64,000 nt of DNA from Chamaelirium japonicum (lineage: Eukaryota > Streptophyta > Magnoliopsida > Liliales > Melanthiaceae). The stretch is from contig CANTAL010000136.1 in assembly GCA_947650365.1 (NCBI GenBank), positions 124,001-188,000 of the forward strand, written 5' to 3'. The notes under the pieces were generated by a model that saw only the letters and a list, made by a program, of their open reading frames with translations, made no database searches and was not told the DNA's origin. The position numbers were made by a program, and so were the translations under genes. Of this stretch, positions 1 through 64,000 are shown in pieces. How positions within the stretch are numbered: the first letter of the stretch is position 1; each line of letters begins with the position of its first letter.

Positions 1-129
1 GATTGTGCGAATGAATTAGAATGGATCGTACGAATAAATTAGAATGGATCGTATGAATGAATTAGAATGGATCATGCGAATGAATTAAAATTGATCGTAT
101 GAATGAATTAGAATGGATCAAGTGAATGA

Positions 130-330
130 ATTAAAATTGATCGTACGAATGAATTAGAATGGATACATTCGTACGAATGAATTAGAATGGATCGTATGAA
201 TGAATTAGAATGGATTGTAGGAATGGATCGTACGAATGAAATAGACTTGTTGAATCGATTCAAATTCATTCGCACGATCCATTCTAATTCATTCATACGA
301 TCCATTCTAATTCATTCATACGATCCATTC
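130..330. repeat. switch segment with ATAGAC word, partner at 5.96-6.16 kb
   Basis: The sequence around the first F-to-R switch (GTAGGAATGG, then GAAATAGACTTGTTG, then CGATTC) recurs at 5,957-6,160, where the word reads GAAATAGACTAGTTGG (ATAGAC at 241 and 6,068, offset 5,827). A reverse-complement relative lies at 26,300-26,330. Confidence 0.75.
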
Positions 331-941
331 TAATTCATTCGTACGAATGTATCCATTCTAATTCATTTAAACGATCCATTCTAATTCTTTCATACGATCC
401 ATTCTAATTCATTCGCACGAATGTATCCATTCTAATTCATTCGTACGATCCATTCGATTTCATTCGCACGATCCATTCTAATTCATTCATACAATCCATT
501 CTAATTCATTCGTACGATCCATTCTAATTAATTCGCACGAATGTATCAATTCTAATTCATTCGTACGATCTATTCTAATTCATTCGCACGATCCATTCTA
601 ATTCATTCATACGATCCATTCTAATTCATTCGCACGATCCATTCTAATTCATTCGCACGATTCATTCAAATTCATTCATACGATCCAATCTAATTCATTC
701 ATATAATCCATTCAAATTCTTTCGCACGAATGCATCTATTCTAATTCATTCGTACGATCCATTCGAATTCATTCCTACGATCCATTCTAATTCATTCATA
801 CGATCCATTCTAATTCATTCGCACGAATGTATCAATTTTAATTCTTTTGTACGATCCATTCTAATTCATTCGCATGATCCAATCTAATTCATTCGCACGA
901 TCTATTCTAATTCATTAGCACGATCCATCTAATTCATTCGC

Positions 942-2300
942 ACGAATGAATTAGAATGGATACATTCGTGCGAATAAATTAGAGTAGATTGTACGAATGA
1001 GTAAGAATGGATCGTACGAAAAAAATTGAATGGATCGTAGGAACGAATTAGAATGGATCGTACGAATGAATTAGAATGGATACATTCGTGCGAATGAATT
1101 AGAATGGATCGTATGAGTGAATTAGAATGGATCGTATGAATGAATTCGAATGGATCGTACGAATAAATTAGAATAGATGCATTCGTGCGAAAGAATTTGA
1201 ATGGATTATATGAATGAATTAGATTGGATCATATGAATGAATTAGAATCGATAGTGCGAATGAATTAGAATGGATCGTACGAATGAATTAGAATGGATCA
1301 TATAAATGAATTAGACTGGATTGTGCGAATGAATTAAAATGGATCGTACGAATGAATTAGAATGGATCGTATGAATGAATTCGAATGGTTCGTACGAATG
1401 AATTAGAATGGATACATTCGTGTGAATGAATTAGAATGGATCATACGAAGATATTAGGGTGGATCGTACGAATGAATTAAAATGGATAGTACGAATGACT
1501 TAGAATGGATCGTGCAAATGAATTAGAATGGATCGTATGAATGAATTAGAATGGATACATTCATGCAAAAGAATTAGAATGGATTGTATGAATAAATTAG
1601 AATGGATCGTGCAAATGAATTAGAATGGATCGTACTAAAGAATTAGAATGGATCATACGAAGGGATTAGAATGGATCGTACGAAGGAATTAGAATGGTTC
1701 GTACGAATAAATTAGAATGGATCATGCGAATGAATTAGAATGGATTGTATGAATGAATTAGAATGGATTGTACGAATGTATCCATTCTAATTCATTCCTT
1801 GGCACAATCTATTCTAATTCATTCGTACGATCCATTCTAATTCATTCATTCGTACGATCCATTATATTTCATACATACGATCCATTCTAATTCATTCGCA
1901 CGAATGTATTCATTCGCACAATCTATTCTAATTCACTTGTACGATCGATTCTAATTCATTAGCACGATCCATTCTAATTCATTCGTACGATGAATTCTAT
2001 TTCATTCGTACGATCCATTCTTGCTAATTCGTACGATCCATTCTAATTCATTCGCACGAATGTATTCATTCTAATTCATTTGTATGATCCATTCTAATTC
2101 ATTCGCATGATCCATTCTAATTCATTCATAGGATCCATTCTAATTCATTCGTACGATCCATTCTAATTCATTCGCACAATCTATTCTAATTCATTCGTAC
2201 GAATCCATTCTAATGGATCGTACGAATGAGTAAGAATAGATTGTGCGAATGAATTAGAATGGATCGTATGAATGAATTAGAATGGATACATTCGTGCGAA
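942..2300. repeat. segmental duplicate, partner at 7.7-9.0 kb
   Basis: This segment shares with 7,700-9,020 an ordered set of rare words: GTAGGAACGAATTAG (GAACGAATTA at 1,041 and 7,841), GGCACAATCT after a bare ATTCATTCC (1,801 and 8,555), CATTCATTCGTACG, TATTTCATAC, and the R-to-F switch TCTAATGGATCG (about 2,211 and 8,937). The offset shrinks from 6,800 to 6,754 to 6,726, so small unit losses separate the copies. Confidence 0.87.
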
Positions 2301-3299
2301 TGAATTAGAATGGATCGTACGAATGAGTAAGAATGGATCGTACGAATGAATTAGAATAGATTGTGCGTATGAATTAGAATGGATACATTTGTGCGAAACA
2401 ATTAGAATGGATTGTATGAATGAATTAGAATGGATCGTATAAATGAATTAGAATGGATCGTATGAAGGAATTAGAATGGATCGTCCTAATGAATTAGAAT
2501 GGATCGTGCTAATTCATTCATACAATCCATTCTAATTCATTTGTACAATCCATTCTAATTCATTCGCACAATCTATTCTAATTCATTCGTACGATCCATT
2601 CTAATTCATTCGCACGATCCATTCTAATTGATTCGTACGATCCATTCTAATTCATTCATACTAATTCATACGATCCATTCTAATTCATTCGTACGATCCA
2701 TTCTAATTCATTTGCATGAATTAGAATGGATACATTCGTGCGAATGAATTAGAATGGATCGTACGAATGAGTAAAAATGGATCGTACGAATGAAATAGAA
2801 TGGATTGTACGAATGAATTAGAATGGTTCGTGCTATTGAATTAGAATGGATCGTACGAATGAATTCATTCTAATTCATACGATCCATTCTAATTCATTCT
2901 AATTCATGCATACGATCGTACGAATGAATAAGAATGGATCGTACGAATGAAATAGAATGGATCGTACGAATGAATTAGAATGGATCGTGCTAATGAATTA
3001 GAATATATCATACAAATGAATTAGAATAAATTGTGCGAATGAATTAGAATGGGTCGTACGAATGAATTAAAATGGATCGTATGAATGAATTAGAATGGAT
3101 CGTGCGAATGAATTAGAATGGATCGTACGAATGAATTAAAATGGATCGTATGAATGAATTAGAATAGATTGTGCGAATAAATTAGAATGGATCATACGAA
3201 TGAATTAGAAGGATACATACGAAAGAATCAATTAGAATGGATTGTACAAATGAATTAGAATGGATACATTCGTGCGAATGAATTAGAATGGATTGTATG

Positions 3300-3342
3300 A
3301 ATGAATTAGAATGGATCGTACGTACGATCCATTCTATTTCAT
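3300..3342. repeat. near-perfect palindrome at an F-to-R switch
   Basis: GTAC at 3,318-3,321 meets GTAC at 3,322-3,325, and the arms (GAATTAGAATGGATC on the left, its complement on the right) match over about 21 bp each with one mismatch. Beyond this the flanking F and R blocks stay complementary at lower identity for some hundreds of bases. Confidence 0.85.
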
Positions 3343-6254
3343 TCGTACGATCCATTTTACTCATTCGTACGATCCATTCTAATTCATTCGCACGATCCAT
3401 TCTAATTCATTCATATGATCTATTCTATATCATTCGCACGATCCATTCTTAGTCATTCGTACGATCCATTCTAATTCAATCGCACGAATGTATCCATTCT
3501 AATTCATTCGTACGATCCATTCTAATTCATTAGCACGATCCATTCTAATACATTCGTACGATCCATTCTAATTCATTCATACGATCCATTCTAATTCATT
3601 TGCATGAATGTATCCATTCTAATTCAGTCGTACGATCCATTCTAATTCATTCGCACCATCTATTCTAATTCATTCGTACGATTCATTCTAATTCATTACC
3701 ACGATCCATTCTAATTCATTCGTACGTTCCATTCTAATTTATTCTAATTCGAATTTATTCAAACGATCCATTCGAATTCTTTCGCACGATCCATTCAATT
3801 CATTCATACGATCCATTCTTATTCTTTCTCACGAATGTATCCATTCTAATTCATTCGTACGATCCATTCTAATTCATTCGCACAATCTATTCTAATTCAT
3901 TCGTACGATCCATTCTAATTCATTAGCACGATCCATTCTAATTCATTCGTACGATCCATTCTATTTCATTCGTATGATCCATTCTTACTCATTCGTACGA
4001 TCCATTCTAATTCATTCACACGAATGTATCCTTTCTAATTCATTCGTACGATCCATTATAATTCATTCGCACGATCCATTCTAATTCATTCATACGATAC
4101 AATCTAATTCATTCATACGATCCATTCTAATTCATCGCACGAATGTATCCATTCTAATTCATTCGTATGATCCATTCTAATTCATTCGCACAATCTATTC
4201 TAATTCATTCGTACGATCCATTCTAATTTATTAGCACGATCCATTCTAATTCATTCGTACGATCCATTTTATTTCATTCGTACGATCCATTCTTACTCAT
4301 TCGTTCGATCTATTCTAATTCATTTGCATGAATGTATCCATTCTAATTCATTCGTACGATCCATTCTAATTCATTCGCACCATCCATTCTAATTCATTCA
4401 TACGATCCATTCTAATTCATTCGTACGATCCATTCTAATTCATTCGCACGATCCATTCTAATATATTCATGCGATCCATTCTAATTCATTCGTACGATCC
4501 ATTCTAATTCTTTCGTACGATCCATTATAATTCATTCGCATGATCCATTCCAATTCATTCATACGATCCCATCTAATTCATTCATACGATCCATTCTAAT
4601 TCATTCGCACGAATGTATCCATTCTAATTTATTCGTACGATCCATTCTAATTCATTCGCACAATCCATTCTAATTCTTTCGCATGAATGTATCCATTCTA
4701 ATTCATTCGTACGATCCATTCTAATTCATTCGCACGATCCATTCTAATTCATTCATACGATCAATTCTATTTCATTCATTGATCCATTCGTGCGAAAGAG
4801 TTAGAATGGATTGTATGAATGAATTTGAATGGATCGTATGAATGAATTTGAATGGATCGTATGAATGAATTAGAATGGATCGTGCGAATGAATTAGAATG
4901 GATCGTATGAATGAATTAGAATGGATCATATGAATGAATTAGAATGGATCGTATGAATGAATTTGAATGGATCGTACGAATGAATTAGAATGGATACATT
5001 TTTGCGAAAGAATTAGAATGGATTGTGCGAATGAATTAGAATGGATCGTACGAATGAATTAGAATGGATACATTCATGCGAATGAATTAGAATGGATCGT
5101 ATGAATGAATTAGATTGGATCGTATGAATGAATTAGAATGGATCGTGCGAATGAATTAGAATGGATCGTACGAATGAATTAGAATGGATCGTATGAATTA
5201 ATTAGAATGGATCGTGCAAATGAATTAGAATGGATCGTACGAATGAATTAGAATGGATCGTATGAATGAATTAGAATGGATCGTGCGAATGAATTAGAAT
5301 GGATCGTACAAGTGAATTAGAATAGATACATTCGTGCGAATGAATTAGAATGGATAGTACGAATGAGTAATAATGGATCGTACGAATGAAATAGAATGTA
5401 TCGTACGATAGAATTAGAATTGATCGTGCAAATGAATTAGATTGGATCGTGCGAATGAATTAGAATGGATCGTACGAATGAATTAGAATGGATACATTCG
5501 TGCGAATGAATTAGAATGGATCGTTTGAATCAATTAGAATGGATCGTATGAATGAATTCGAATGGATCGTACGAATGAATTAGAATGGATTCATTCGTGC
5601 GAAAGAATTAGAATGGATTGTATGAATGAATTAGAATGGCCCGTATGAATGAATTAAAATGGATCGTACAAATGAACTAGAATAGATCATACAAATGAAT
5701 TAGAATGGATCGTATGAATGAGTTAGAATGGATCGTGCGAATGAATTAGAATGGACTGTACGAATGAATTAGAATGGATCGTATGAATAAATTCGAATGG
5801 ATCGTACGAATGAATTATAATGGATACGTTCGTGCTAATGAATTAGAATGGATCATAAGAAGGAATTAGGGTGGATCGTACGAATGAATTATAATGGATC
5901 GTACGAATGAATTAGAATGGATCATGCGAATAAATTAGAATGGATCATGCAAATGAATTAGAATGGATACATTCGTACGAATGAATTAGAATGGATCGTA
6001 TGAATGAATTAGAATGGATCGTACGATTGAATTAGAATGAATCGTAGGAATGGATCGTACAAATGAAATAGACTAGTTGGATCGATTCTAATTTATTCGC
6101 ATGATCCATTCTAATTCATTCATACGATCCATTCTAATTCATTCATACAATCCATTCTAATTCATTCGTACGAATGTATCCATTCTAATTCATTCATACG
6201 ATCCATTCTAAATCATTCGCACGAATGTATATATTCTAATTTATTCGTACGATC

Positions 6255-8122
6255 CATTCGGTTTCATTCGCATGATCCATTCTAATTCACTCATACGATC
6301 CATTCTAATTCATTCGTATGATCCATTTAAGTTCATTCGCACGAATGTATCCATTCTAATTCATTCGTACGATCCATTCTAATTCATTCGCACAATCTAA
6401 TCTAATTTATTCGCACGATCCATTCTAATTCATTTGTACGATCCATTCTATTTCATTCATATGATCCATTCTAATTCGTGTGAATGAATTACATTGGATC
6501 ATACAAATGAATTAGAATGGATCGTGCGAATGAATTAGAATGGATCGTACGAATGAATTAGAATAGATTATGCGAATGATATAGAATGGATCGTACGAAT
6601 GAATTAGAATGGATATATTCTAATTCATTCCCACGATCCATTATAATTCATTCATACGATCCATTCTAATTCATTCGTACGATCCATTCTAATTCATTAG
6701 CACGATTCATTCTAATTCATTCGTATAATCCATTCTATTTCATTCGTACGATCCATTCTTACTCATTGAATTAGAATGGATCATGCGAATGAATTAGAAT
6801 GGATCGTACGAATGAATTAGAGTGGATACATTCGTGTGAATGAATTAGAATAAATCGTACGAATGAGTAAGAATGGATCGTACGAATGAAATAGAATGGA
6901 TCGTAGGAACGAATTAGAATGGATCGTATGAATGACTTAGAATGGATACATTCGTGTGAATGAATTACAATGGATCGTATGAATGAATTAGAATGGATCG
7001 TATGAATGAATTCGAATGGATCGTACGAATGAATTAGAATGGATGCATTCGTGCGAAAGAATTAGAATGGATTGTATGAATGAATTAGAATGGATCGTAT
7101 GAATGAATTAGAATGGATCGTGCGAATGAATTAGAATGGATCGTACGAATGAATTAGAATGGATCGTAAGAATGAATTAGAATGGATACATTCTAATTCA
7201 TTCCCATTATCCATTCTAATTCCTTCATACGATGCATTCTAATTCATTCGTATGATCCATTCTAATTCATTCGCACGAATGTATCCATTCTAATTCATTC
7301 ATACGATCCATTCTAATTCATTCGCACGATCCAATCTAATTCATTCGCTCGATCCATTCTAATTCATTCGTACGATCCATTCTATTTCATTCGTACGATC
7401 CATTCTAATTCGTGCAAATTAATTAGATTGGATCATACAAATGAATTAGAATGGATCGTGCGAATGAATTAGAATGGATCGTACGAATGAATTATAATAG
7501 ATTGTGCGAATGAATTAGAATGGATCGTACGAATGAATTTGAATGGATACATTCTAATTCATTCCCACGATCCATTCTAATTCATTCATACGATCCATTC
7601 TAATTCATTCGTACGATCCATTCTAATTCATTAGCACGATCCATTCTAATTCATTCGTATGATCCATTCTATTTCATTCGTACGATCCATTCTTACTCAA
7701 TGAATTAGAATGGATCGTGCGAATGAATTAGAATGGATCGTATGAATGAATTAGAATGGATACATTCGTGCGAATGAATTAGAATAGATCGTACGAATTA
7801 GCAAGAATGGATCGTATGAATAAAATAGAAAGGATCGTAGGAACGAATTAGAATGGATCGTACGAATGAATTAGAATGGATACATTCGTGCGAATGAATT
7901 AGAATGGATCGTATGAATAAATTAGAATGGATCGTATGAATGAATTTGAATGGATCAAACGAATGAATTAGAATGGATGCATTCGTGCGAAAGAATTTGA
8001 ATCGATTGTATGAATGAATTAGAATGGATCGTATGAATGAATTAGAATGGATCGTGCGAATGAATTAGTATGGATCATACGAATAAATTAGAATAGATCG
8101 TATGAATGAATTAGAATGGATC
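6255..8122. repeat. 934-bp tandem duplication with inverted blocks
   Basis: Copies are about 6,255-7,188 and 7,189-8,122. GATCATACAAATG is at 6,497 and 7,431 and GCACGAATG at 6,339 and 7,273, both 934 bp apart. Each copy holds R, F, R and F pieces in the same order, with the switches at equivalent places (CTAATTCGTG at about 6,477 and 7,411; CTTACTCA joined to GAATTAG at about 6,766 and 7,698) and the shared word GTAGGAACGAATTAG. Confidence 0.88.
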
Positions 8123-9020
8123 GTGCGAATGAATTAGAATGGATCGTACGAATGAATTAGAATGGATCATATGAATGAATTCGAATGGTTCGTACGAATG
8201 AATTAGAATGGATACATTCGTGTGAATGAATTAGAATGGATCATACGAAGGAATTAGGGTGGATCGTATGAATGAATTAAAATGGATTGTACGAATGAAT
8301 TAGAATGGTTCGTGTGAATGAATTAGAATGGATCGTATGAATGAATTAGAAAGGATACATTCGTGCAAAAGAATTAGAATGGATTGTATGAATGAATTAG
8401 AATGGATCGTGCAAATGAATTAGAATGGATCGTACAAAAGAATTAGAAAGGATCGTACGAAGGAATTAGAATGGATCGTACGAATGAATTAGAATGGATC
8501 ATGCGAATGAATTAGAATGGATTGTACAAATGTATCCATTATAATTCATTCCTGGGCACAATCTATTCTAATTCATTCGTACGATCGATTCTTATTCATT
8601 CATTCGTACGATCCATTCTATTTCATACGTACGATCCATTCTCATTCATTCGCACGAATGTATTCATTCGCACAATCTGTTCTAATTCATTCGTACGATC
8701 GATTCTAATTCATTAGCACGATCTATTCTAATTCATTCGTATGATCCATTCTGTTTCATTCGTACGATCCATTCTTACTCATTCGTACGATCCATTCTAA
8801 TTCATTCGTACGATCCATTCTAATTCATTCGCACGATCCATTCTAATTCATTCATACGATCCATTCTAATTCATTCGTACGATCCATTCAAATTCATTCG
8901 CACAATCTATTCTAATTTATTCGTACAAATCTATTCTAATGGATCGTACGAATGAGTAAGAATAGATTGTGCCAATGAATTAGAATGGATCGTACGAATG
9001 AATTATAATGGATACATTCG
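7700..9020. repeat. segmental duplicate, partner at 0.94-2.3 kb
   Basis: This is the second copy of the dispersed segment. It overlaps the right copy of the 934-bp tandem duplication, so that segment exists in at least three related versions within the first 9 kb. Both orientation switches of the partner (F to R at about 8,528, R to F at about 8,936) are kept. Confidence 0.87.
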
Positions 9021-12000
9021 TGCGAATGAATTAAATGGATCGTATAAATGAATTAGATTGGATCGTATGAATGAATTAGAATGGATTGTGCGAATGAATT
9101 AGAATGGATCGTACGAATAAATTAGAATGGATACATTCGTGCGAAAGAATTAGAATGGATTAGAATAGATCGTATGAATTAATTCATTTGTACGATCCAT
9201 TCGTACGATCCAATCTAATTCATTCGCACGATCCATTCTAATTCATTCGTACGATCCATTCTTACTCATTCGTACGATCCATTCTTACTCATTCGTACGA
9301 TCCATTCTTACTCATTCGTACGATCGTACGAATGAATTAGAATGGATCGTATGAATGAATTAGAATAGATTGTATGAAGGAATTAGAATAGATTATGCAA
9401 ATGAATTAGAATGGATCGTACGAATGAATTAGAATGGATACATTCATGCGAATGAATTAGAATGGATCATACGAAGGAACTAGGGTGGATCGTACGAATG
9501 AATTAGAATGGATACATTCATGCGAAAGAATTAGAATTGATTCTATGAATGAATTTGAATGGATCGTACGAATGAATTAGAATGGATCGTACGAATGAAT
9601 TAGAATAGATTGTGCGAATGAATTAGAATGGATTGTACAAATGAATTAGATTGGATACATTCGTGCGAAAGAATTAGAATAGATTGTATGAATGAATTAG
9701 AATGGATCGTATGAAAGAATTAGAATGGATAATACGAATGAATTAGAATGGATCGTACGAATGAATTAGAATGGATCGTGCGAATGAATTAGAATGGATC
9801 GTACGAATGAATTAGAATGGATACATTCGTGCGAATAAATTAGAATGGATCGTACGAATGAGTAAGAATGGATCGTACGAATAAAATAGAAAGGATCGTA
9901 TGAATGAATTAGAATGGATCGTACGAATGAATTAGAATGGATCGTACGAATGAGTAAGAATGGATCATACAAATGAACTAGAATGGATCGTACGAATGAA
10001 TTAAAATGGATCGTGCGAATGAATTAGAATGGACCGTACGAATGAATTAGAATGGATCGTACGAATGAATTAGAATGGATCGTATGAATAAATTAGAATG
10101 GATTGTGCGAATGAATTAGAATGGATCGTACGAATGAATTAGAATGGATCGTATGAATGAATTAGAATGGATCGTGCGAATGAAATAGAATGGATCGTAC
10201 GTGAATTAGAATGGATCGTATGAATGAATTAGAATGGATCGTGTGAATGAATTAGAATGGATCGTACGAATGAATTAGAATGGATACATACGAAAGAATG
10301 GATCGTACGTATGAATTAGAATAAATCGTACGAATGAATTAGAATGGATACATTCATGGGAATGAATTAGAATGGATCGTACCAAGGATTTAGAATGGAT
10401 CATACGAATGGAATAAAATGGATCGTACGAAGGAATTAGAATGGATCGTACGAAGGAATTAGAATGGATCGTACGAAGGAATTAGAATGGATCATACAAA
10501 GGAATATGAAAGGATCGTATGAATGAATTAGAATGAATACATTTGTGCAAAAGAATTAGATAGAATGGATCATACGAATGAATTAGAATGGATCGTGCTA
10601 ATGAATTATAATGGATTGTACGAATGAATTAGAATGGATTGTGCAAATGAATCAGAATGGATCATGCAAATGAATTAGAATGAATCGTACGAATGAATTA
10701 GAATGGATCATACGAATGAATTAGAATGGATACATTCGTTAAAAAGAATTAGAATGGATTGTATGAATGAATTAGAATGGATCATGCGAATGAATTAGAA
10801 TGGATCGTACGAATGAATTAGAATGGATACATTCGTGCGAATGAATTAGAACGGATCGTACGAATAAGTAAGAATGGATCGTACGAATGAAATAGAATGG
10901 ATCGTACGAATGAATTAGAATGGATCGTGCTAATGTATTAGAATGGATCGTACGAATGAATTAGAATAGATTGTGCGAATGAATTAGAATGGATCGTACG
11001 AATGATTTAGCATGGATACATTCGTGTGAACGAATTAGAATAGATCGTACGAATGGATCGTACGAAGGAATTAGAATGAATTAGAATAGATATATTCGTG
11101 CGAGTGAATTAGAATGGATCGTATGAATGAATTAGATTGGATTGAATTAATGAATTAAAATGGATCGTACGTATGAATTAGAATGGATACATTTATGGGA
11201 ATGAATTAGAATGGATCGTACGAAGGAATTAGAATGGATCATACGAAGGAATTAGAATGGATCGTATGAATGAATTAGAATGGATACATTCATGCAAAAG
11301 AATTAGAATGGATTGCATTCTAAGTCATTCGTATGATCCATTCTAATTCATTCGCACGATCCATTCTAATTCATTCATACGATCCATTCTAATTCATTCG
11401 TACGATCCATTCTAATTCATTCGCACGATACATTCTAATTCATTCAAACGATCCATTCTAATTCATTCATACAATCCATTCTAATTCTTTCACACAAATG
11501 TATCCATTCTAATTCATTCGTAATATCTAATCTAATACCTTCGTATAATCCATTCTAATTCATTCGTACGATCCATTCTAATTCATTCGCACAATCCATT
11601 CTAATTCATTCATACGATCCATTCTAATTCATTCATACGATCCATTCTAATTCATTCGCACAATCTATTCTAATTCATTCGTACGATCCATTCTAATTCA
11701 TTAGCATGATCCATTCTAATTCATTTGTACGATCCATTCTATTTCATTCGTACGATCCATTCTTACTTATTCGTACGATTTATTCTAATTCTAATTCATT
11801 CGTATGATCAATTCTAATTCATTAGCACGATCCATTCTAATTCATTTGTACGATCCATTCTATTTCATTAATACGATCCATTCTAATTCATTCGCATGAT
11901 CCATTCTAATTCAATTATACGATCCTTTCTAATTCATTCGTACGATCCATTCTAATTCATTCGTACGATCCATTCTAATTCATTCGTACGAATGTATCCA

Positions 12001-13969
12001 CTCTAATTCATTCATACGATCCATTCTAATTCATTCGCACGAATGTATCCATTCTAATTCATTCGTATGATCCATTCTAATTCATTCATACGATCCATTC
12101 TAATTCTTTCATACGATCCATTCTAATTCATGCGATCCATTCTAATTTATTCGTACGACACATTCTTACTCATTCGTACGATCCATTATAATTCATTCGC
12201 ACGAATGTATCCATTCTAATTCATTCGTACGATCCATTCTAATTTATTCGCACGATCCATTCTAATTCATTCATACGATCCATTATAATTCATTCGTATG
12301 ATCCATTCTAATTCATTCGCAGATCCATTCTATTTCATTCATACGATCAATTCTAATTCATTCATACAATCTATTCTAATTCTTTCGTACGAATGAATTA
12401 GAATGGATCGTACGAAGGAATTAGAATGGATCATACGAATGAAATAGAATGGATCGTACGAAGGAATTAGAATGGATCGTGCGAATGAATTAGAATGGAT
12501 CATGCGAATGAATTAGAATGGATTGTACGAATGAATTAGAATGGATACATTCATGCAAATAAATTAGAATGGATCGTACGAATGAGTAAGAATGGATCGT
12601 ACGAATGAATTAGAATGGATCGTGTCAATGAATTAGATTGGATCGGATGAATTAGAATGGATCGTGCGAATGAATTAGAATAGATCGTACAAATGAATTA
12701 GAATAGATCGTGCGAATGAATTAGAATGGATCCTACGAATGAATTAGAATGGATACATTCGTGCGAATGATTTAGAATGGATCATACGAATGAGTAAGAA
12801 TGGATCGTACGAATGAAATAGAAGGGATCTTATCATACGATCCATTCGAATTCATTCATAAGATCCATTCTAATTCATTCGTATGATCCATTCTAATTCA
12901 TTCGCACGATCCATTCTAATTCATTCGCACGATCCATTCTAATTTATTCATACGATCCATTCTAATTCATTCATACGATCCATTCTAATTCATTCGTACG
13001 ATCCATTCTAATTCATACGTACAATCTATTCTAATTCATTCGTACGATCCATTCTAATTCATTAACACGATCAATTCTAATTAATTCGTACGATCCATTA
13101 TATTTCATTCGTACGATCCATTCTTACTCATTCGTACGATCCATTCTAATTCATTCGCACGAATGTATCCATTCTATTCTAATTCTTTCGTACGATTCAT
13201 TCTAATTCATTCCACGATCCATTCTAATTCATTCATACGATCCCTTCTAATTCATTCGTACGACCCATTCTAGTTCATTCGCACGATCCATTCCAATTCA
13301 TTCATACGATTCATTCTAACTCATTCATACAATCCATTCTAATTCTTTCGCACGAATGTATCCATTCCAATTCAATCGTACGATCCACCCTAATTCCTTC
13401 GTATGATCCATTCTAATTAATTCGCACGAATGTATCCATTCTAATTCATTCGTAAGATCCATTCGAATTCATTCATACGATCCATTCTAATTCATTCATG
13501 TGATCCATTCTAATTCATTCATACGATACATTCTAATTCAATCGCACGAATGTATTAATTCGTACAATCCATTCTAATTCATTCATACGATCCTTTCTAA
13601 TTCATTCGGACGAATGTATTCATTCGCACAATCTATTCTAATTCATTCACACGATCCATTCTAATTCATTAGCATGATCCATTCTAATTTATTAGTACGA
13701 TCCATTCTATTTCATTCGTACGATCCATTCTTACTCATTCGTACGATCCATTCTAATTCATTCGCACGAATGTATCCATTCTAATTCATTCGTACGATCC
13801 ATTCTAATTCATTCGCACTATCCTTTCTAATTCATTCATACGATCCATTCTAATTCATTCGTACGATCCATTCTAATTCATTCGTACGATCCTTTCTAAT
13901 TCATTCGTACGATCCATTCTAATTCATTCGCACTATCCTTTCTAATTCATTCGTATGATCCATTCTAAT

Positions 13970-14640
13970 TCATTCGTACGATCCATTCTAATTCATTCAT
14001 ATGATCCATTCTAATTCATTCATACAATCTATTCTAATTCTTTTGCATGAATGGATCCATTCTAATTAATTCGTACGATCCATTCTATTTCATTCGTACG
14101 ATCCATTCTAATTCATTCGCACGATCCATTCTAATTCATTCATACGATCCATTCTAATTCATTCATACAATCCATTCTATTTCTTTCGTACGAATGGATC
14201 CATTCTAATTCATTCGTACGATCCATTCTATTTCTTTCGCACGATCTATTCTAATTCATTCGTACGATCCATTCTAATTCATTCGTACGATCTATTCTAA
14301 TTCATTCATACAATCCTTTCTAATTCATTCATACGATCCATTCTAATTCATTCATACAATCTATTCTAATTATTTTGCATGAATGGATCCATTCTAATTC
14401 ATTCGTACGATCCATTCTATTTCATTCGTACCATCCATTCTAATTCATTCGCACGATCCATTCTAGTTCATTCATACGATCCATTCTAATTCATTCATAC
14501 AATCCATTCTATTTCTTTCGTACGAATGGATCCATTCTAATTCATTCGTACGATCCATTCTATTTCTTTCGCACGATCTATTCTAATTCTTTCGTACGAT
14601 CCATTCTAATTCATTCGTACGATCCATTCTAATTCATTCG
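13970..14640 (-). repeat. 332-bp tandem duplication
   Basis: Two copies of about 332 bp. TTTTGCATGAATGGATCC occurs at 14,041 and 14,373, and TTTCGTACGAATGGATCC is also 332 bp apart (its CGTACG at 14,187 and 14,519). The length fits twelve 23-bp units plus two 28-bp units. Confidence 0.82.
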
Positions 14641-15769
14641 CACGATCTATTCTTATTCATCCGTACGATCCACTCTAATTCATTCACACGATCTATTCTA
14701 ATTCATTCGTACGAGCTATTCTAATTCATTCGTACGATCCATTCTAATTCATTCGTGCGATCCATTCTAATTCATTCATACAATCCATTCTAATTCTTTC
14801 GCACGAATGTATCCATTCTAATTCATTCGACGATCCACCCTAATTCCTTCGTATGATCCATTCTAATTCATTCGCATGATCCATTCTAATTCATTTGTAC
14901 GATCCATTCTAATTCATTCATACAATCCATTCTAATTCTTTTCCACAAATGTATCCATTCTAATTCATTCGTACAATCCATTCTAATTCTTTCGTACGAT
15001 CCATTTTAATTCCTTTATACGATCCATTATAATTCCTTCGTACGATCCAATCTAATTCATTCATACGATCCATTCTAATTCGTTCGTACGATCTATTCTA
15101 ATTCATACGTACGATCCATTCGAATTCATTCATAGGATCCATTCTAATTCATTCATACGATCCATTCTAATTCATTCGCATGAATATATCCATTCTAATT
15201 CAGTACGATCCATTCTAATTCATTTGCACGAATGTATCCATTCTAATTGATTCGTACGATCCATTCAAATTCATTCATACAATCCATTTTAATTCTTTTG
15301 TAAGAATGCATCCATTCTAATTCATTCGTATGATCCACCCCAATTCCTTCGTATGATCCATTCTAATTCATTTGCACGAATGTATCCATTCGAATTCATT
15401 CGTACGATCCATTCGAATTCATTCATACGATCCATTCTAATTCATTCATACGATCCATTCTAATTCATTCGCATGAATGTATCCATTCTAATTCATTCGT
15501 ACGATCCATTCTAATTCATTCGCACAATCTATTCTAATTCATTCGTACAATCCATTCTAATTCATTTGCACGATTCATTCTAATTCTTTTGCACGATCCA
15601 TTCTAATTCATTCAAACTATCCATTCTAATTCATACGTACGATCCATTCTAATTCATTCATACGATCCAATCTAATTCATTCATACGATCCATTCTAATT
15701 CATTCGCACGAATTCATTCATACGATCCATTCTAATTCATTCATACGATCCATTCTAATTCATTCGCAC

Positions 15770-18163: not shown

Positions 18164-18946
18164 CATTTGAACGATCCATTCGAATTCATTCATACGATCC
18201 ATTCTATTTTATTCATACGATCCATTCTAATTCATTTGCACGAATGTATCCATTCTAATTCATTCGTACGATCCATTCTAATTCATTTGTACGATCCATT
18301 CTAATTCATTCATACAATCCATTCTAATTGTTTTGCACGAATGTATCCATTCTAATTCCTTCGTACGATCCACTCTAATTCCATCGTACGATCCATTTTA
18401 ATTCCTTCGTACGATCCATTCTAATTCCTTCGTACGATCCATTCTAATTCATTCCCATGAATATATCTATTCTAATTAATTCGTACGATCCATTCTAATT
18501 CATTAGCACGATCCATTCTAATTCATTCGTACGATCCATTCTAATTCATTCGTACAATCCATTCTTACTCATTCGTACGATCCATTCTAATTCATTCATA
18601 CGATCCATTCTAATTCGAATTAGTATGAATTAGAATGGATCATTCTAATTCATTTGCACGAATGTATTCATTCTAATTCATTCGTACGATCCATTCTAAT
18701 TCATTTGTACGATCCATTCTAATTCATACGAATGATCGTACTAATGTATCATTCTAATTCATTCGTACGATCCATTCTAATTCATTCGTACGATCTACTC
18801 TAATTCATTTGCACTATCCATTCTAATTCATTCATACGATCCATTCTAATTCATTCATACAATCCATTCTAATTCTTTCGCACGAATGTATCCATTCTAA
18901 TTCATTCGTACGATCCACCCTAATTCCGTCGTATGATCCATTCTAA

Positions 18947-27638: not shown

Positions 27639-27650
27639 TTTTTTTTTTTT
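27639..27650 (-). other. LINE poly(A) tail
   Basis: Twelve T on the + strand, uninterrupted, equal twelve A at the 3' end of the minus-strand element. It abuts the left target-site repeat with no extra bases. Confidence 0.9.
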
Positions 27651-27842
27651 AATCAAAGCTATGGGGATTTTATTAGGGACCCCGCCCAAGAAACAAAAAA
27701 AGAATATTCACATTACAACTCTGGCCTTTTATAGATCAAGGCTATCAGAGAAATGGAAAACAAAATACAGAGAACATTGAAACTAGAAACAAATCCATCT
27801 CCTCACTCATCTACAAAAACAGCCCCTCTAAGTCCCTTCCAA
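27651..27842 (-). other. LINE 3' untranslated region
   Basis: About 190 bp lie between the ORF2 stop codon and the poly(A) tail on the minus strand. No further open frame of note and no resemblance to the satellite were seen. It ends in AGCTTTGATT directly before the A run. Confidence 0.8.
27669..27674 (-). promoter_or_regulatory. polyadenylation signal AATAAA of the LINE
   Basis: The minus strand reads AATAAA here, 18 nt before the poly(A) run begins. This is a normal distance for a cleavage and polyadenylation signal, and it supports the view that the element was copied from a polyadenylated RNA. Confidence 0.75.
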
Positions 27843-37960: not shown

Positions 37961-38583
37961 ATGGATCGTGCGAATGAATTAGAAGGGATCGTACGAATGA
38001 ATTAGAATGGATACATTCATGCAAATGAAATTAGAATGGATCTTACGAATGAGTAAGAATGGATCTTACGAATAAAATAGAATGGATCGTTCGAATGAAT
38101 TAGAATGGATCGTACTAATGAATTAGAATGGATCGTATGAATGAACTAGTATGGATTGTGCGAATGAATTACAATGGATCATGCGAATGAATTAGAATGG
38201 ATCGTATGAATGAATTAGAATGAATCGTGCGAATGAGTTAGAATGGATCGTACGAATGAATTAGAATGGATACATTCATGCGAATGAATTAGAATGGATT
38301 GTATGAATGAATTAGAATGGATCGTATAAATGAATTAGAAAGGATCATGCGAATGAAATAGAATGGATAGTACGAATGAATTAGAATGGATCGTACGAAT
38401 GAATTAGAATGGATCGTGCGAATGCATTCGAATAGATCGTACGAATGAATTAGAATGGATACATTCGTACGAATGAATTAGAATGGGTCGTACGAAGGAA
38501 TTAGAATGGATCATACGAATGAAATTAAATTGAACGTACGAAGGAATTAGAATGGATCGTACGAAGGAATTAGAATGCAACAT

Positions 38584-51720: not shown

Positions 51721-54343
51721 AATTCATTCGCATAATCTATTCTAATTCATTTGTACGATCCATTCTAAGACATTCTAATTCATTTGCACGATTGTATGAA
51801 TGAATTAGAATGGATCGTACGAATGAATTAGAATAGATTGTGCGAATGAATTAGAATGGATCGTACGAATGAATAAGAATGAAGGAATTAGAATGGATTG
51901 TACGAATGAATTAGAATAGATTGTGCATATGAATTATAATGGATCGTACGAATGAATGGATCGTACGAATGAATTAGAATCGATACATTCATGCGAATGA
52001 ATTAGAATGGATCGTACAAATGAGAAAGAATGGATCGTACGAATGAAATAGAATGGATCGTACGAATGAATTAGAATGGATCGTGGTAATGAATTAGAAT
52101 GGATCGTATGAATGAATTAGAATAGATTGTGCGAATGAATTAGAATGGATCGTACGAATGAATTAGAATGCATACATTCATGTGAATGAATTAGAATGGA
52201 TCGTATGAATGAATTAGATTGGATCGTATGAATGAATTAGAATGGATCGTACGTATGAATTAGAATGGATACATTCATGGGAATGAATTAGATTGGATCG
52301 TACGAAGGAATTATAATAGATCATACGAATGAATTAGAATGGATACATTTGTGCAAAAGAATTAGAATGGATTGTATGAATGAATTAGAATGGATCATGC
52401 AAAAAAATTAGAAAGGATCGTACGAAGGAATTAGAATGGATCGTACGAAGGAATTAGAATGGATCCTACGAATGAATTAGAATAGATACATTCGTGCGAA
52501 TTAATTAGAATGGATCGTATAAATGAATTAGAATGGATCGTATGAATGAATTCGAATGGATCGTACGAATGAATTAGAATAGATACATTCGTGCGAATGA
52601 ATTAGAATGGATCGTACGAAGGAATTATAATGGATCGTACGAAGGAATTAGAATGGATCGTACGAATAAATTAGAATGGATACATTCGTGCTAATGAATT
52701 AGAATGGATCGTATGAATGAATTAGAATGGATCGTATGAATGAATTCGAATGGATCGTACGAATGAATTAGAATGGATACATTCGTGTGAATGAACTAGA
52801 ATGGATCGTACGAAGGAATTAAAATGGATCGTACGAAGGAATTAGAATGGATACATTCGTGCAAAAGAATTAGAATGGATTGTTTAAATGAATTAGAATG
52901 GATTGTGCAAATAAATTAGAATGGATCGTACGAATTAAATAGAATGGATCATACAAATGAATTAGAATGGATCAAACGAATGAATAAGATTGGATCATGC
53001 GAATGAATTAGAACGGATCATATGCACGAATGAATGAATTAGAATGGATCGTACGTATGAATTCTATTAATTAGAATGGATCTCTTCTAATTCATTTGCA
53101 CGATCCATTCTAATTCATTCGTACGATCCATTCTAATTCATTTGCACGAATGTATCCATTCTAATTCATTCGTACGATCCATTCGAATTCATTCATACGA
53201 CCCATTCTAATTCATTCATACCATCCATTCTAATTCATTCGCATGAATGTATCCATTCTAATTCATTCGTACGATCCATTCTAATTCCTTCGTACGATCC
53301 ATTCTAATTCATTTGCACTATCCATTCTAATTCATTCGCACAATCTTTTCTAATTCATTCGTACGATACATTCTAATTCATTAGCACGATCCATTCTAAT
53401 TCATTCGTACGATCCATTCTATTTCATTCATACGATCCATTCTTACTCATTCGTACGATCCATTCTAATTCATTCGCACGAATGTATCCATTCTAATTCA
53501 TTCGTACGATCCATTCATTCGTACGATCCATTCTAATTCATTCGCACAATCTATTCTAATTCATTCGTACGAATCATTCGAATTCCTTCATTCTTATTCG
53601 TTCGTACGATCCATTCTAATTCATTTGCACAATCTACTCTAATTCATTCGTACGATCCATTCTAATTCATTCATACAATCGTGCGAATGAATTAGAATGT
53701 AATAGAATGGATAGCACGAATAAATTAGAATAGATTGTGTGAATGAATTAGAATGGATCGTACGAATGAATTAGAATGGATATATTCATGCGAATGAATT
53801 ATAATGGATTGTATGAATGAATTAGATTGGATCGTATGAATGAATTTCAATGGATCGTATGTATGAATTAGAATGGATACATTCATGGGAATGAATTAGA
53901 TTGGATCGTACGAAGGAATTAGAATGGATCCTACGAATGAAATAGAATGGATCATACGAAGGAATTAGAATGGATCGTACATTATGAATGAATTAGAATG
54001 GATCGTACATATGAATTAGAATGGATACATTCATGGGAATGAATTAGAATAGATCGTACGAAGGAATTAGAATGGATCCATTCTAATTCATTCTAATTCA
54101 TTCATACGATCCATTCTAATTCATTCATACGATCCAATCTAATTTATTCATATGATCCATTCTAATTAATTCGCACGAATGTATCCATTCTAATTCATTT
54201 GCACGATCCATTCTAATTCATTCATACGATCCATTCTAATTCATTCGCATGAATGTATCCATTCTAATTCATTCTAATTCCTTCGTACGATCCATTCGTA
54301 CGAACCATTCTAATTCCTTCTCACGAATGTATCCATTCTAATT

Positions 54344-54356
54344 CATTCGTATGATC
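54344..54356. other. paralogous site lacking the LINE
   Basis: CATTCGTATGATC differs by one base from the LINE target repeat. Its surroundings match both LINE flanks: on the left TAATTCATTCTAATTCCTTCG and the TTC-CACGAATGTATCC unit, on the right CGCACAATCTATTC, TTAGCACGATCC, CTATTTCAT and CTTACT in order. It represents the unoccupied form of the insertion site. Confidence 0.72.
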
Positions 54357-57300
54357 CATTCTAATTCATTCGCACAATCTATTCTAGTTCATTCGTACTA
54401 TCCATTCTAATTCATTAGCACGATCCATTCTAATTCATTCATACGATCCATTCTATTTCATTTGTACGATCCATTCTTACTTATTCATACGATCCATTCA
54501 AATTCATTCGCATGAATGTATCCATTCTAATTCATTCGTACGATCCATTCTAATTCATTCGCACGATCTATTCTAATTCATTCGTACGATCCATTCAAAT
54601 TCATTCGTACGATCCATTCTAATTCATTCGCACGATCCATTCTAATTCATTTATACGATCCATTCTAATTCATTCGCACGAATGTATCCAATCTAATTCA
54701 TTCGTACGATCCATTTTATTTCATTCGTACGATCCATTCTTACTCATTCGTATGATCCGTACGAATGAGTAAGAATGGATCGTACGAATGAAATAGAATG
54801 GATCATACGAATGAATTAGAATGGATCGTGCGAATGAATTAGATTGGATCGTGCGAATGAATTAGAATGGATCGTACGAATGAATTAGAATGGATACATT
54901 CGTGCGAATGAATTAGAATGGATCGTGCAAATGAATTAGAATGGATCGTACGAATGAATTAAATAGATTGTATGAATGAATTAGAATGGATCGTACGAAT
55001 AAATTAGAATGGATACTTACGTGCGAATGAATTAGAATGGATCGTGCGAATGAATTAGAATGGATCCATTCTAACTCATTCGTACAATCCATTCTAATTC
55101 TTTTGCACGAATGTATCCATTCTATTTCATTCGTACGATCCATTCTAATTCATTCGTACGTTCCATTCTTACTCATTCGTACGATCCATTCTAATTCATT
55201 CGCGTGAATGTATCCATTCTAATTCATTCGTATGATCCATTCCAATTCATTCGCATGATCCATTCTAATTCATTCATACGATCCATTCTAATTCATTCGT
55301 ATGATCCATTCTAATTCATTCGCACAATCTATTCTAATTCATTCGTACGATCTAATCTAATTCATTAGCACGATCCATTCTAATTCATTCGTACGATCCA
55401 TTCTATTTCATTCGTACGATCCATTCTTACTCATTCGTACGATCCATTCTAATTCATTCACACAAATGTATCCATTCTCATTCATTCGTACGATCCATTC
55501 TAATTCATTCACACGATCCATTCTAATTCATTTGTACGATCCATTCTAATTCATTCACACGAATGTATCCATTCTAATTCATTCGTACGATCCATTCTAA
55601 TTCATTCGCATGATCCATTCTAATTCATTCATACGATCCATTCTAATTCATTCATATGATCCATTCTAATTCATTCGCATGATCCATTCTAATTCATTCA
55701 TACGATCCATTCAAATTCATTCATACAATCCATTCTAATTCTTTCGCACGAATTAGAAAGGATCGTACAAATGAGTAAGAATGGATCGTACGAATAAATT
55801 AGAATGGATCGCACAAAGGAATGAATTAGAATGGATACATTCGTACAATCCATTCTAATTCATTCGTACGATCCATTCTAATTCTTTCGCACGAATGTAT
55901 CCATTCTAATTCTTTCGCACGAATGTATCCATTCTAATTCATTCGTACGATCCACCCTATTTCCTCCGTATGATCCATTCTAATTCATTCGTACGATCCA
56001 TTCTAATTCATTCGTATGATCCATTATAATTCATTCATGCGATCGATTCTAATTTATTCATACGATCCATTTTAATTCATTCGCACGAATGTATCCATTC
56101 TAATTCATTCATACGATCAATTCTAATTCATTCGCACAATCTATTCTTATCCATTCGTACGATCCATTCTAATTCATTCACACGATCTATTCTAATTCAT
56201 TCATACGATCCATTCAAATTCATTCGTACGATCCATTCTAATTCATTCGTACGATCCATTCTAATTCATTCGCATGATCCATTCTACGTACGATCCATTC
56301 TAATTCATTCCCATGAATGAATCTATTCTAATTCATATGTACTATCCATTCAAATTCATTCAAACGATCCAATCTAATTCATTCATACGATCCATTCTAA
56401 TTCATTCGCATGAATGTATCCATTCTAATTCATTCGTACGATCCATTCCGATCCAATCTAATTCATTCATACGATCCATTCTAATTCATTCGTACGATCC
56501 ATTCTTACTCATTCGTATGATCCATTCTAATTCTTTCGCACGAATGTATCCATTCTAATTCATTCGTATGATCTATTCTAATTCATTCGCACGATCCATT
56601 CTAATTCATTTATACGATCCATTCTAGATCATTTGTACGATCCATTCTAATTCATTCATACGATCCATTCTAATTCATTCATACAATCCATTCTAATTCT
56701 TTCGCACGAATGTATCCATTCTAATTCATTCGTACGATCCTCTCTAATTCCTTCGTACGATCCATTCGAATTCATTCATACGATCCATTCTAATTCATTC
56801 GCACGTATGAATTGGATCGTATGAATAAATGAATTAGAATGGATCGTACGAATGTATTAGAATGGATCATACGAAGGAATTAGGGTGGATCGTACGAATG
56901 AATTAGAATGGATTAGAATGTATCGTACGAATGAATTAGAACGGATCGTACGAATGAATTAAAATGGATCGTACGATTGAATTATAGTAAATTGCGCGAA
57001 TGAATTAGAATGGATCGTACGAATGAATTAGAATGGATACATTTGTGCGAATGATTTAGAAAGGATCGTATGAATGAATTAGATTGGATCGTATGAATGA
57101 ATTAGAATGGATCATATGAATGAATCGTATGAATGAATTAGAATGGATCGTATGAATGAATTTTTCATACGAATGAATTAGATTGGATACACTCATGCGA
57201 ATGAATTAGAATAGATCATACGAAGGAATTAGGGTGGACCGTACGAATGAATTAGAATGGATACATTTGTGCGAAAGAATTAGAATGGATTGTATGAATC

Positions 57301-58570: not shown

Positions 58571-61500
58571 ATTCGTACGATCCATTCTAATTCATTCGTA
58601 TGATCCATTCTTACTCATTCGTATGATCCATTCTTATTCATTCGCACCAATGTATCCATTCTAATTCATTCGTATGATCCATTCTAATACATTCACACGA
58701 TCCATTCTAATTCATTTGTACGATCCATTCTAATTCATTCATACAATCCATTCTAATTCTTTCGCACGAATGTATCCATTCTAATTCATTCGTACGATCC
58801 ATTCTAATTCAATCGCACGATCCATTCTAATTCCTTCATACGATCCATTCTAATTCGTTCGTACGATCCATTCTAATTCATTCGCACAATCCATTCTAAT
58901 TCCTTCGCACGGTCTATTCTAATTCATTCGTATGATCCATTCTATTTCATTCGTATGATCCATTCTTACTCATTCGTACGATCCATTCTAATTCATTCGC
59001 ACGAATGTATCCATTCTAATTCATTCGTACGATCCATTCTAATTCATTCGCACCATCCATTCTAATTCATTCATACGATCAATTCTAATTCATTCATAAG
59101 ATCCATTCTAATTCATTCGCACGATCCATTCTAATTTATTCATACGATCCATTCTAATTCATTCATACAATCGATTCTAATTCATTCGCACGAATGTATC
59201 CATTCTAATTCATTCGTACGATCCATTCTTACTCATTCGTACGATCCACTCTATTTCATTCGTACGATCCACTCTTACTCATTCGTACGATCCATTCTAA
59301 TTCATTCGCACGAATGTATCCATTCTAATTCATTCGTACGATCCATTCTAATTCATTCGTACGATCCATTCAAATTCATTCGTACGATCCATTCTAATTC
59401 ATTCGCACGATCCATTCTAATTCATTCATACGATCCATTCTAATTCATTCAAACAATCCATTCTGATTCATTCACACAATCTATTCTAATTCATTCGTAC
59501 GATCTATTCTAATTCATTAGCACGATCCATTCTAATTCATTCGTACGATCCATTCTATTTCATTCGTACGATCCTTTCTTACTCCTTCATACGATCCATT
59601 CTAATTCATTTGCACGATCCATTCTAATTCATTCGTACGATCCATTCAATTTCATTCATATGATCCATTCTTACTCATTCGCACGATCCATTCTAATTCA
59701 TTCGCACGAATGTATCCATTCTAATTCATTCGTACGATCCATTCTAATTCATTTGCACGATCCATTCTAATTCTTTCGTACGATCCATTCTAATTCATTC
59801 ATACAATCCATTCTAATTCTTTCGCACGAATGTATCCATTCTAATTCATTCGTACGATCCTATGTAATTCATTCGCACAATCCATTCTAATTCCTTCGTA
59901 CGATCCATTCTAATTTATTCGTACGATCCATTCAATTTCATTCATACGATCCATTCTTACTCATTCATACGATCCATTCTAATTCATTCGCACGAATGTA
60001 TCCATTCTAATTCATTCGTACGATCCATTCTAATTCATTTGCACGATCCATTCTAATTCATTCATACGATCTATTCTAATTCATTCATATGATCTATTCT
60101 AATTCATTCGCACGATCCATTCTAATTCATTCATACGATCCATTCTAATTCATTCATACGATCCATTCTAATTCATTTCCACGAATGTATCCATTCTAAT
60201 TCATTCGTACGATCCATTCTATTTCATTCGTACGATCCATTCTTACTCATTCGTACGATCCACACTTATTCATTCATACGATCCATTCTTACTTATTCGT
60301 ACGATCCATTCTAATTCATTCGCACGATCCATTCTAAATCATTCATACGATCCATTCTAATTCATTTGTACGATCCATTCAAATTCATTCGCACGATCCG
60401 TTCTAATTCATTCATACGATCAATTCCAATTCATTCAAACAATCCATTCTAATTCTTTCGCACGAATGTATCCATTCTAATTCATTCGTACGATCCACCC
60501 TAATTCCTTCGTATAATCCATTCTAATTCTTTCGCACGAATGTATCCATTCTAATTTATTCATACGATCCATTCGAATTCATTCATACGATCCATTCTAA
60601 TTCATTCATACGATCCATTCTAATTCACTCATGTGATCCATTCTAATTCATTCGCACGAATGTATCCATTCTAATTCATTCGTACGATCCATTCTAATTC
60701 ATTCGCACAATCTATTCTAATTAATTCGTACGATCCATTCTAATTCGTTCGCATGATCCATTCTAATTCATTTATACGATCCATTCTAATTCATTCATAC
60801 AATCCATTCTAGTTCTTTTGCACGAATGTATCCATTCTAATTCATTCATGCGATCCACCCTAATTCCTTCGTACGATCCATTCTAATTCATTCGCATGAA
60901 TGTATCCATTCTAATTCATTCGTACGATCCATTCGAATTCATTCATACGATCCATTCCAATTCATTCATACGATCCATTCAAATTCATTCGCACAAATGT
61001 ATCCATTCTAATTCATTCAAACGATCCATTCCGATCCAATCTAATTCATTCATACGATCCATTCTAATTCATTCGCACGAATGTATCCATTCTATTTCAT
61101 TCCATTCGTGCGGATGAATTAGAATGGATCATACGAATGAATCGTGCGAATGAATTAGAATGGATTGTGCGAATGAATTAGAATGAATCGTATGAATCGT
61201 GCGAATGAATTAGAATGGATTGTGCGAATGAAGTAGAATGGATTGTACGAATGAATTAGAATGGATCGTACAAATGAATTAGAATGGATTCATTCCCATG
61301 GATACATTCGTGGAAATGAATTAGAATGGATCGTATGAATGAATTAGATTTGATCGTATGAATGAATTAAAATGAATCGTACGTATGAATTAGAATGGAT
61401 ACATTCGTGCGAATGAATTAGAATGGATCATACGAAGGAATTAGGGTGGATCGTACGAATGAATTAGAATGGATATATTCATGCGAAAGAATTAGAATGG

Positions 61501-64000
61501 ATTGTATGAATGAATTAGAATGGATCGTATGAATGAATTAGAATGGATCGTGCGAATGAATTAGAATAGAATGGATCCATTCTAATTCATTCGTACGATC
61601 CATTCTAATTCATTCGTATGATCCATTCTAATTCATTCATACGATCCATTCTAATTCATTCGCATGATCTATTCTAATTCACTCATACGATCCATTCTAA
61701 TTTATTAGCACAATCCATTCTAATTCATTTGTACGATCCATTCTATTTCATTCGTACGATCCATTCTTACTCATTCTTACGATCCATTCTAATTCATTCG
61801 CACGAATGTATCCATTCTAATTCATTCATACGATCCATTCTAATTCATTCGCACGATCCATTCTAATTCATTCATACGATCCATTCTAATTCATTCATAC
61901 AATCCATTCTAATTCTTTCGCACGAATGTATCCATTCTAATTCATTCGTACGATCCATTCTAATTCATTCGAACGATCCATTCTAATTCATTCATACGAT
62001 CCATTCTAATTCATTCGTACGATCCGTTCTAATTCATTCGCACAATCCATTCTAATTCCTTCGTACGATCCATTCTAATTCCGTCGTACGATCCATTCTA
62101 ATTCATACGATCCATTCTAATTCAATCATACGATCCATTCCAATTCATTCGCTCTAATTCCTTCGTACGATCCCTTCTAATTCTTTTGTACGATCCATTC
62201 TAATTCCTTCGTACGATCCATTCTATTTCATTCGTATGATCCATTCTAATTCCTTAGTACGATCCATTCTAATTCATTCCCATGAACGTAACCATTATAA
62301 TTAATACATACGATCCATTCCAATTCATTCATACGATCCAATTTAATTCATTCATACGATCCATTCTAATTCATTCGCACGAATGTATCCATTCTAATTC
62401 ATTCATACGATCCATTCTAAGTCATTCGCACGATCCATTCTAATTCATTCATACGATCCATTCTAATTCATTCATACAATCCATTCTAATTCTTTCGCAC
62501 GAATGTATCCATTCTAATTCATTCGTACGATCAATTCTAATTCATTCGAACGATCCATTCTAATTCATTCATACGGTCCATTCTAATTCATTCGTACGAT
62601 CCGTTCTAATTCATTCGCACAATCCATTCTAATTCCTTCGTACGATCTATTCTAATTCCGTCGTACGATCCATTCTAATTCATACGATCCATTCTAATTC
62701 ATTCATACGATCCATTCCAATTCATTCGCTCTAATTCCTTCGTACGATCCATTCTAATTCTTTTGTACGATCCATTCTAATTCCTTCGTACGATCCATTC
62801 TATTTCATTCGTATGATCCAATCTAATTCCTTCGTACGATCCATTCTAATTCATTCCCATGAATGTAACCATTCTAATTCATACATACGATCCATTCTAA
62901 TTCATTCATACGATACAATCTAATTCATTCATACGATCCATTCTAATTCATTCGCACGAATGTATCCATTCTAATTCATTCGTACGATCTATTCTAATTC
63001 ATTCGCACAATCTATTCTAATTCATTCGTACGATCCATTCTAATTCATTCGCACGATCTATTATAATTCATTCATACGATCCATTCTTATTCATTCATAC
63101 AATCCATTCTAATTCATTCTTATTCATTCGTACGATCTATTCTTATTCATTTGTATGATCCATTCAATCAAATTCATTCGCACGATCCAATCTAATTCAT
63201 TCGCACGATCCATTCTAATTCATTCGCACGAATGTATCCTCATTCGCACGATCCATTCTAATTCATTTGCACGATCCATTCTAATTCATTCATACAATCA
63301 ATTCTAATTCATTCGCACGAATGAAATAGAATGGATCGTACGAATGAAATAGAATGGATCGTACGAATGAATTAGAATGGATACATTCATGCAAATGAAT
63401 TAGAATGGATCGTATGAATGAATTAGAATGGATCGTATGAATGAATTAGAATGGATTGTACGAATGAATTAGAATAGATCGTATGAATGAAATAGAATGG
63501 ATCACATGAATGAATTAGAATGGATCGTGCGAATGAACAAGAATGGATCGTACGAATGAATTAGCATGGATACATTCGTGCGAATGAATTAGAATGGATC
63601 GTACGAATGAGTAAGAATGGATCCTATGAATGAAATAGAATGGATCGTACGAATGAATTAGAATTGATCGTGCCAATGAATTAGAATGGATCGTACGAAT
63701 GAATTAGAATAGATTATGCGAATGAATTAGAATGGATCGTACGAATGAATTAGAATGGATCGTGCGAATGAATAAGAATGGATCACACGAATGAATACAT
63801 TCTAATTCATTAGCATGATCCATTCTAATTCATTCGTACGATCCATTCTATTTCATTCGTACGATCCAATCTTACTCATTCGTACGATCGATTCTAATTC
63901 ATTCGCACGAATGTATCCATTCTAATTCATTCGTACGATCCATTCTAATTCCTTCGTACGATCCATTCTATTATATTCATACGATCCATTCTAATTCATT
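58248..64000. repeat. satellite sub-region: mostly R, to the window end
   Basis: Approximate blocks: R 58248-61107, F 61108-61574, R 61575-63319, F 63320-63797, R 63798-64000 (continues outside). A 577-bp tandem duplication lies at about 61.8-62.95 kb. Only satellite is present. Confidence 0.9.
61800..62955 (-). repeat. 577-bp tandem duplication
   Basis: Two copies, about 61,800-62,377 and 62,378-62,955. The unit with missing bases reading TTCGCTCTAATTCC lies at 62,149 and 62,726 (577 bp apart). Shared rare words are GATCCGTTC, TTCCGTCGTACG, TTCGAACGATCC and AATGTAACCATT. Confidence 0.87.

Follow-up and report, generated by a model that had tools for sequence, protein, structure and literature searches.

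A satellite that reverses its orientation dozens of times within a few tens of kilobases raises the question of whether inversion is still at work in the array or whether its reversals have been inherited. We addressed this question in a 64,000-bp stretch of Chamaelirium japonicum DNA (the window), positions 124,001-188,000 of contig C148 (CANTAL010000136.1) within a 1.52-Gb assembly. The data presented below make it probable that most of the orientation mosaic has been inherited: the flips would have arisen from infrequent joins at microhomologies, and segmental copying, duplication and deletion would have spread and reshuffled them.

The window was segmented using a profile hidden Markov model (HMM) running in both orientations (forward, F, and reverse, R), with paths for 23-bp and 28-bp units. 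This model and a tandem repeat analysis indicated that nearly the whole window is made of a 23-bp satellite and its 28-bp variant (2,224 and 415 units traversed, respectively), with a match-state identity to the consensus of 91%. We counted 67 direct F/R switches (69 with an earlier version of the model, built without the 28-bp path), separating blocks of 19 to 6,116 bp with a median of 612 bp; 33,283 bases were assigned to F, 29,498 to R and 1,219 to the non-satellite state. The original prediction for this DNA had described a plant satellite with about 73 flips, blocks of about 20 bp to 5.8 kb and almost equal totals (about 33 and 30 kb), a picture that the segmentation bears out with small corrections to the number of flips and the longest block. 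Synthetic one-orientation arrays of 64 kb were returned as one block with zero switches in 3 of 3 controls, 20 kb of shuffled window gave no satellite calls, and each of the 15 blocks below 250 bp preferred its own orientation (log-likelihood, lnL, 22-237). The near-equal totals in the window would suit simple two-break inversions of existing segments as the source of most blocks, whereas over 264 kb of C148 the totals were unequal (F 100 kb, R 134 kb). A blunt inversion also predicts that the two ends of a block share one reflection phase; equal phases were found in 6 of 182 blocks against a permutation mean of 9.6, a comparison in which the 28-bp unit makes phase coarse and later deletions could erase the signature. 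We regard this origin as very unlikely.

The lengths and sequence features of its units mark the window as a probable centromere unit built of Chio1/Chio2 satellite, from Chionographis japonica or a very close relative. As in the sections of the published descriptions covered here (PMC10264360, PMC12722358), a 23-bp monomer dominated over a rarer 28-bp monomer, forward and reverse arrays were mixed, and higher-order repeats were present. The window units showed the 5-bp deletion and single substitution that distinguish Chio1 from Chio2 (PMC10264360), and the R-strand consensus contained the 9-mer TTCGTACGA given in a figure legend (PMC12722358), including its 8-bp dyad. Because the satellite matches Chio1/Chio2, whose arrays are reported to be in "frequently alternating orientation" (PMC12722358), the alternation itself is already known. 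The mixture of orientations has been called individual to each centromere unit in C. japonica (PMC10264360), whereas here the same mixture recurred on several scaffolds and contigs. A switch order shared between units was not found in print within the literature searched, in the passages and sections covered, supplements excluded. The same literature yielded nothing closer than the systems cited here, and none of six monomer words occurred in it. In the 28-bp units, which occur all along the window, the additional 5 bp create CATTCG..CGAATG, complementary to the adjoining GAATG; Chio2 could therefore derive from a tiny fold-back copy.

The order of the switches was compared with that found elsewhere in the genome (1,518,659,071 bases in 3,253 contigs). 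All 25 switches lying between positions 245 and 12,832 of the window were present in order on contig C39 (24 identified by their flanks and the last by block order). Contig C211 had 18 of the 18 switches covered by the part compared (17 by flanks and one by block order), and 22 of the 25 recurred on C3, a chromosome scaffold of 100.1 Mb (19 by flanks and three by block order). Block order was the stronger test, because some of the best flank matches fell on sister switches of the same type. The logarithms of block lengths in the window correlated with those on C39, C211 and C3 (r 0.97-0.99), and in each of the three comparisons none of 10,000 shuffles reached the observed value. The three switches left unmatched on C3 all fell between 8,422 and 9,221. 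These results bear on the possibility that chimeric or misjoined satellite reads created the alternation during assembly. Satellites are hard to assemble and scaffolds C10 and C5 contain probable haplotype duplications; against this, the same switches occurred in separately assembled contigs and scaffolds, and the authors of the published primary assembly (1,526,137,861 bp, scaffold N50 81.11 Mb), built from HiFi reads, reported the mixture themselves (PMC10264360). Since separately assembled sequences agree, an artefact is very unlikely.

Ten pieces of the window were then searched against the genome, with 40 candidates scored for each; the numbers of places are lower bounds and exclude the window itself. 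The piece with four internal switches listed in Table 1 recurred on seven large scaffolds, "large scaffolds" other than C3 being judged by match coordinates. The seven-switch piece 6400-7800 was found in at least 16 other places at 92-96% identity, and at least 9 places at ≥92% spanned at least the first two of the three switches in 31500-33200, which was covered whole by C217 and C211 among the matches listed. Similar recurrence was seen for pieces 25900-27600 (at least 30 places at ≥94%), 11000-13000 (at least 14 at ≥91%), 18300-19300 (at least 12 at ≥92%), 61300-63900 (at least 11 at ≥93%, across essentially the entire piece) and 19600-21100 (at least 8 other places at ≥92%). For piece 21900-25300, the only whole-length matches among those listed were on C211 (96%) and C217 (86%). 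Several copies lay at near-constant offsets, for example on C94 and C3, and are probably alleles.

Contig C217, which matches the right part of the window in reverse orientation, with 98-99% identity in five pieces, allowed recent change to be examined. Block order was kept over 35.0-49.3 and 51.5-61.4 kb (about 24 kb), and 17 of the 18 window switches covered by C217 matched by their flanks at ≥95%. These corresponded to 15 distinct C217 switches, one pair being duplicated in the window; the exception, at 55,749, adjoins a local length difference. No private inversion was seen in C217 over the two 10-kb stretches compared. The sole large difference in the compared stretches was the direct tandem duplication of about 4.1 kb listed in Table 1, present as a single copy in C217. 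Within 264 kb of C148, repeat pairs of ≥98% identity were 12 direct and 0 inverted over ≥300 bp, and 36 direct and 25 inverted over ≥200 bp; the pairs are not independent, as one duplication yields several. Amplification was visible at several scales: 4.1 kb in the window, about 16.5 kb and 151 kb for the steps on C39, and 120 kb for those on C45.

The switch junctions carried traces of how they may have formed. Junctions were clustered at 90% identity, because thresholds of 88% or lower merged unlike junctions into big groups, and 108 of 192 switches were kept for the microhomology test, matched to 111 cluster representatives between two HMMs. At least 3 bp of sequence was shared at 38% of the deduplicated FR junctions (n = 56) and 42% of the RF junctions (n = 52), compared with 5% and 4%, respectively, of simulated random joins (499 usable of 500). 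Junction phases were concentrated at few positions, two of which are dyads of the 23-bp unit. With 1 in 23 expected for each, FR phase 0, which we read as an extra dyad of the 28-bp unit, accounted for 19 of 64 junctions, FR phase 10 (GATC) for 11 of 64, and RF phase 18 (TCGTACGA) for 10 of 57. The importance that the original prediction attached to palindromic centres is thus borne out by the excess of microhomology and by the phase peaks at dyads.

The same prediction inferred that repeated inversion, perhaps by fold-back replication or break repair between these centres, continues in the array. The junction microhomology and clustered phases are in keeping with such a process, as are the probable fold-back at 24,270 and the slight mirror-arm excesses given below. 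In the most tolerant test, a local alignment across 127 switches, there was no excess of mirror arms (Kolmogorov-Smirnov p 0.83), with 6 switches at rank ≤0.05 where 6.35 were expected. Arms anchored at the switch scored no better than shifts within their own block (means 0.650 and 0.645; p 0.31). Near-identical mirror arms with a short loop were not found as a class among the 127 switches, and probably occur at one of them, 24,270. At this switch, nearly all of a 369-bp R block repeats the neighbouring sequence in inverted orientation, with a score of 310 against 294 for the highest of 34 null scores. Three of the 127 switches beat all of their own nulls, the number expected, which is why a fold-back at 24,270 is considered only probable. 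The absence of inverted pairs at 98% over 300 bp, and a switch order held in the compared stretches of C39, C211, C217 and, except for one indel, C3, also argue against continuing inversion.

Several observations weigh against a mosaic that is mostly inherited. Besides the probable fold-back at 24,270, two mirror-arm tests gave a slight excess: arms compared with those of other switches averaged 0.665 against a null of 0.642 (standard deviation 0.055), 17 of 125 falling below 0.05, and in the anchored test 30 of 217 mirror arms scored above all of their shifts, where 19 were expected. In view of the latter figure, a minority of old fold-backs may be present among the switches. The best alignments of 12 other copies stop exactly at 24,270, and others stop at 32,619 (6 rows) and at about 55,749; because alignments end exactly at them, some switches may be younger rearrangement joints. 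Assemblers may also lose recent perfect palindromes, which could bias the comparison of ages. Over ≥150 bp, pairs of ≥98% within the 264 kb were equally common in the two orientations (193 direct and 205 inverted). Near 74.0 Mb on C3, a stretch of about 55 kb contains the seven-switch piece in either orientation, and larger segments have therefore inverted or been copied inverted. As several copies look allelic, independent loci are fewer than places. C217 itself is a patchwork, matching at 94% over 18300-19300 and 86% over 21900-25300, and was not among the matches listed for 254-945, 6400-7800 and 11000-13000, all left of 13 kb; it may represent either a recent paralogue or the second haplotype, with exchange in patches. 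We lowered our confidence slightly for the patchiness of C217 and for short inverted pairs being as similar as direct ones. Taking both sides together, we consider it unlikely that fold-back keeps inverting the array: the satellite, its real alternation and the importance of its dyads stand as originally described, whereas continuing inversion is mostly unsupported.

We therefore return to a mostly inherited mosaic, for which the following steps are proposed. Rare joins between opposite strands, with few shared bases and often at monomer dyads, would generate switches, as the junctions suggest, and some of these joins would be fold-backs. Segments that already held many switches then underwent tandem duplication, and copies of them came, by whatever route, to lie on other contigs and chromosomes, as the switch order common to separate contigs and scaffolds shows. 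Inside the mosaic, duplication and deletion would copy switches, take them out or join them anew, each of which was seen once, and an indel across blocks would give a new F/R joint without any inversion, as on C3 if the difference there is a deletion. Inversion events are probably far fewer than switches, since switches are copied, removed and re-joined in this way.

With somewhat less confidence, we favour the idea that the flip order acts as a barcode, with segments of composite make-up, each holding dozens of frozen switches, copied among centromere units on most chromosomes. In support of it, more than 12 kb of common order has been shown so far on C39 and C3, and seven large scaffolds carry a 2.25-kb piece with four switches. 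To explain the spread of centromere units along chromosomes into a holocentromere, interlocus gene conversion, inversions or circular DNA have been proposed (PMC10264360). As a marker based on orientation, switch order survives changes of several per cent in the base sequence, and could tell local expansion from transfer between units. If the idea is true, the barcode would allow the seeding of one unit by another to be traced through the formation of the holocentromere, and the published account of a mixture individual to each unit would need qualification.

Table 1 Coordinates of features in the window
Feature	Position	Strand	Evidence
Chio1/Chio2-type satellite array with 67 direct F/R switches, divided into 69 blocks of F or R orientation	1..64000		HMM segmentation, tandem repeats, controls
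Flip barcode, 25 switches; order common to C39, first 18 on C211, 22/25 on C3 (42.165-42.185 Mb)	245..12832		Flanks, block order, block-length correlation
About 800 bp with three switches, missing from the copy on C3; the joint left there is also an F/R junction	8422..9221		Alignment breakpoints, block order
Longest single-orientation block (R, 6,116 bp)	12833..18948	-	HMM segmentation
Probable fold-back; R block 23,902-24,270 as inverted copy of ~24,345-24,703	23902..24703		96.1% over ~359 bp, 74-bp loop
End of a 5'-truncated LINE retrotransposon with domains zf-RVT and RVT_3; T-run on the left	27639..28837	-	HMM gap, domain matches
Direct tandem duplication of ~4.1 kb (38,182-42,199 and 42,275-46,292), two switches	38182..46292		3,070 bp at 99.7%
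Piece with four internal switches; at least 27 other places at 95-99%, 13 on seven large scaffolds	53500..55753		Genome search

One R block is interrupted by a 1.2-kb fragment of a long interspersed nuclear element (LINE) holding a 338-codon open frame, a feature absent from the original prediction. The fragment is flanked on both sides by CATTCGTACGATC, a possible target-site duplication, and only that because it is also a satellite word. Distances between matches suggest that the LINE is present in C217 and absent from C211. Left of the window, a 26-kb satellite-free stretch breaks the array (C148 51315-77354; L011-L014). On C10, five matched pieces near 61.9-62.5 Mb recur at an identical 467,319-base offset, reflecting a large recent duplication or two haplotypes placed end to end. 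On C5, matches between 79.8 and 85.9 Mb form a mirror image around 82.85 Mb, on opposite strands, as might result if two haplotypes had been scaffolded head to head.

Other systems bear on whether selection acts on the alternation, with hairpins formed by dyads or by inverted blocks aiding CENH3 loading. Dyads have been proposed to matter in Chio and Tribolium, in the published sections covered (PMC10264360, PMC13081366), and the switch order is conserved; copying accounts for that conservation, however, and in the sister genus, whose centromeric satellite also contains TTCGTACGA, arrays are consistently oriented (PMC12722358). We strongly doubt that selection maintains the alternation. That satellite, Chama of Chamaelirium luteum, resembles the one studied here in being centromeric and sharing the 9-mer, and differs in its published uniform orientation (PMC12722358). 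The inverted copy and short loop at 24,270 resemble human fold-back inverted duplications as described in the part of that work covered (PMC3907307), a state that is not general among the switches of the window. In the account covered of the macro-dyad satellites TmSat1 and TmSat2 of Tribolium madens (PMC13081366), arrays of the centromere region mostly form two inverted subarrays, whereas the window has 69 unequal blocks in place of two kilobase-sized mirror subarrays, and no general excess of mirror arms. Both systems show orientation changes in centromere-region arrays and recurring, conserved inversion sites, represented here by the shared switches.

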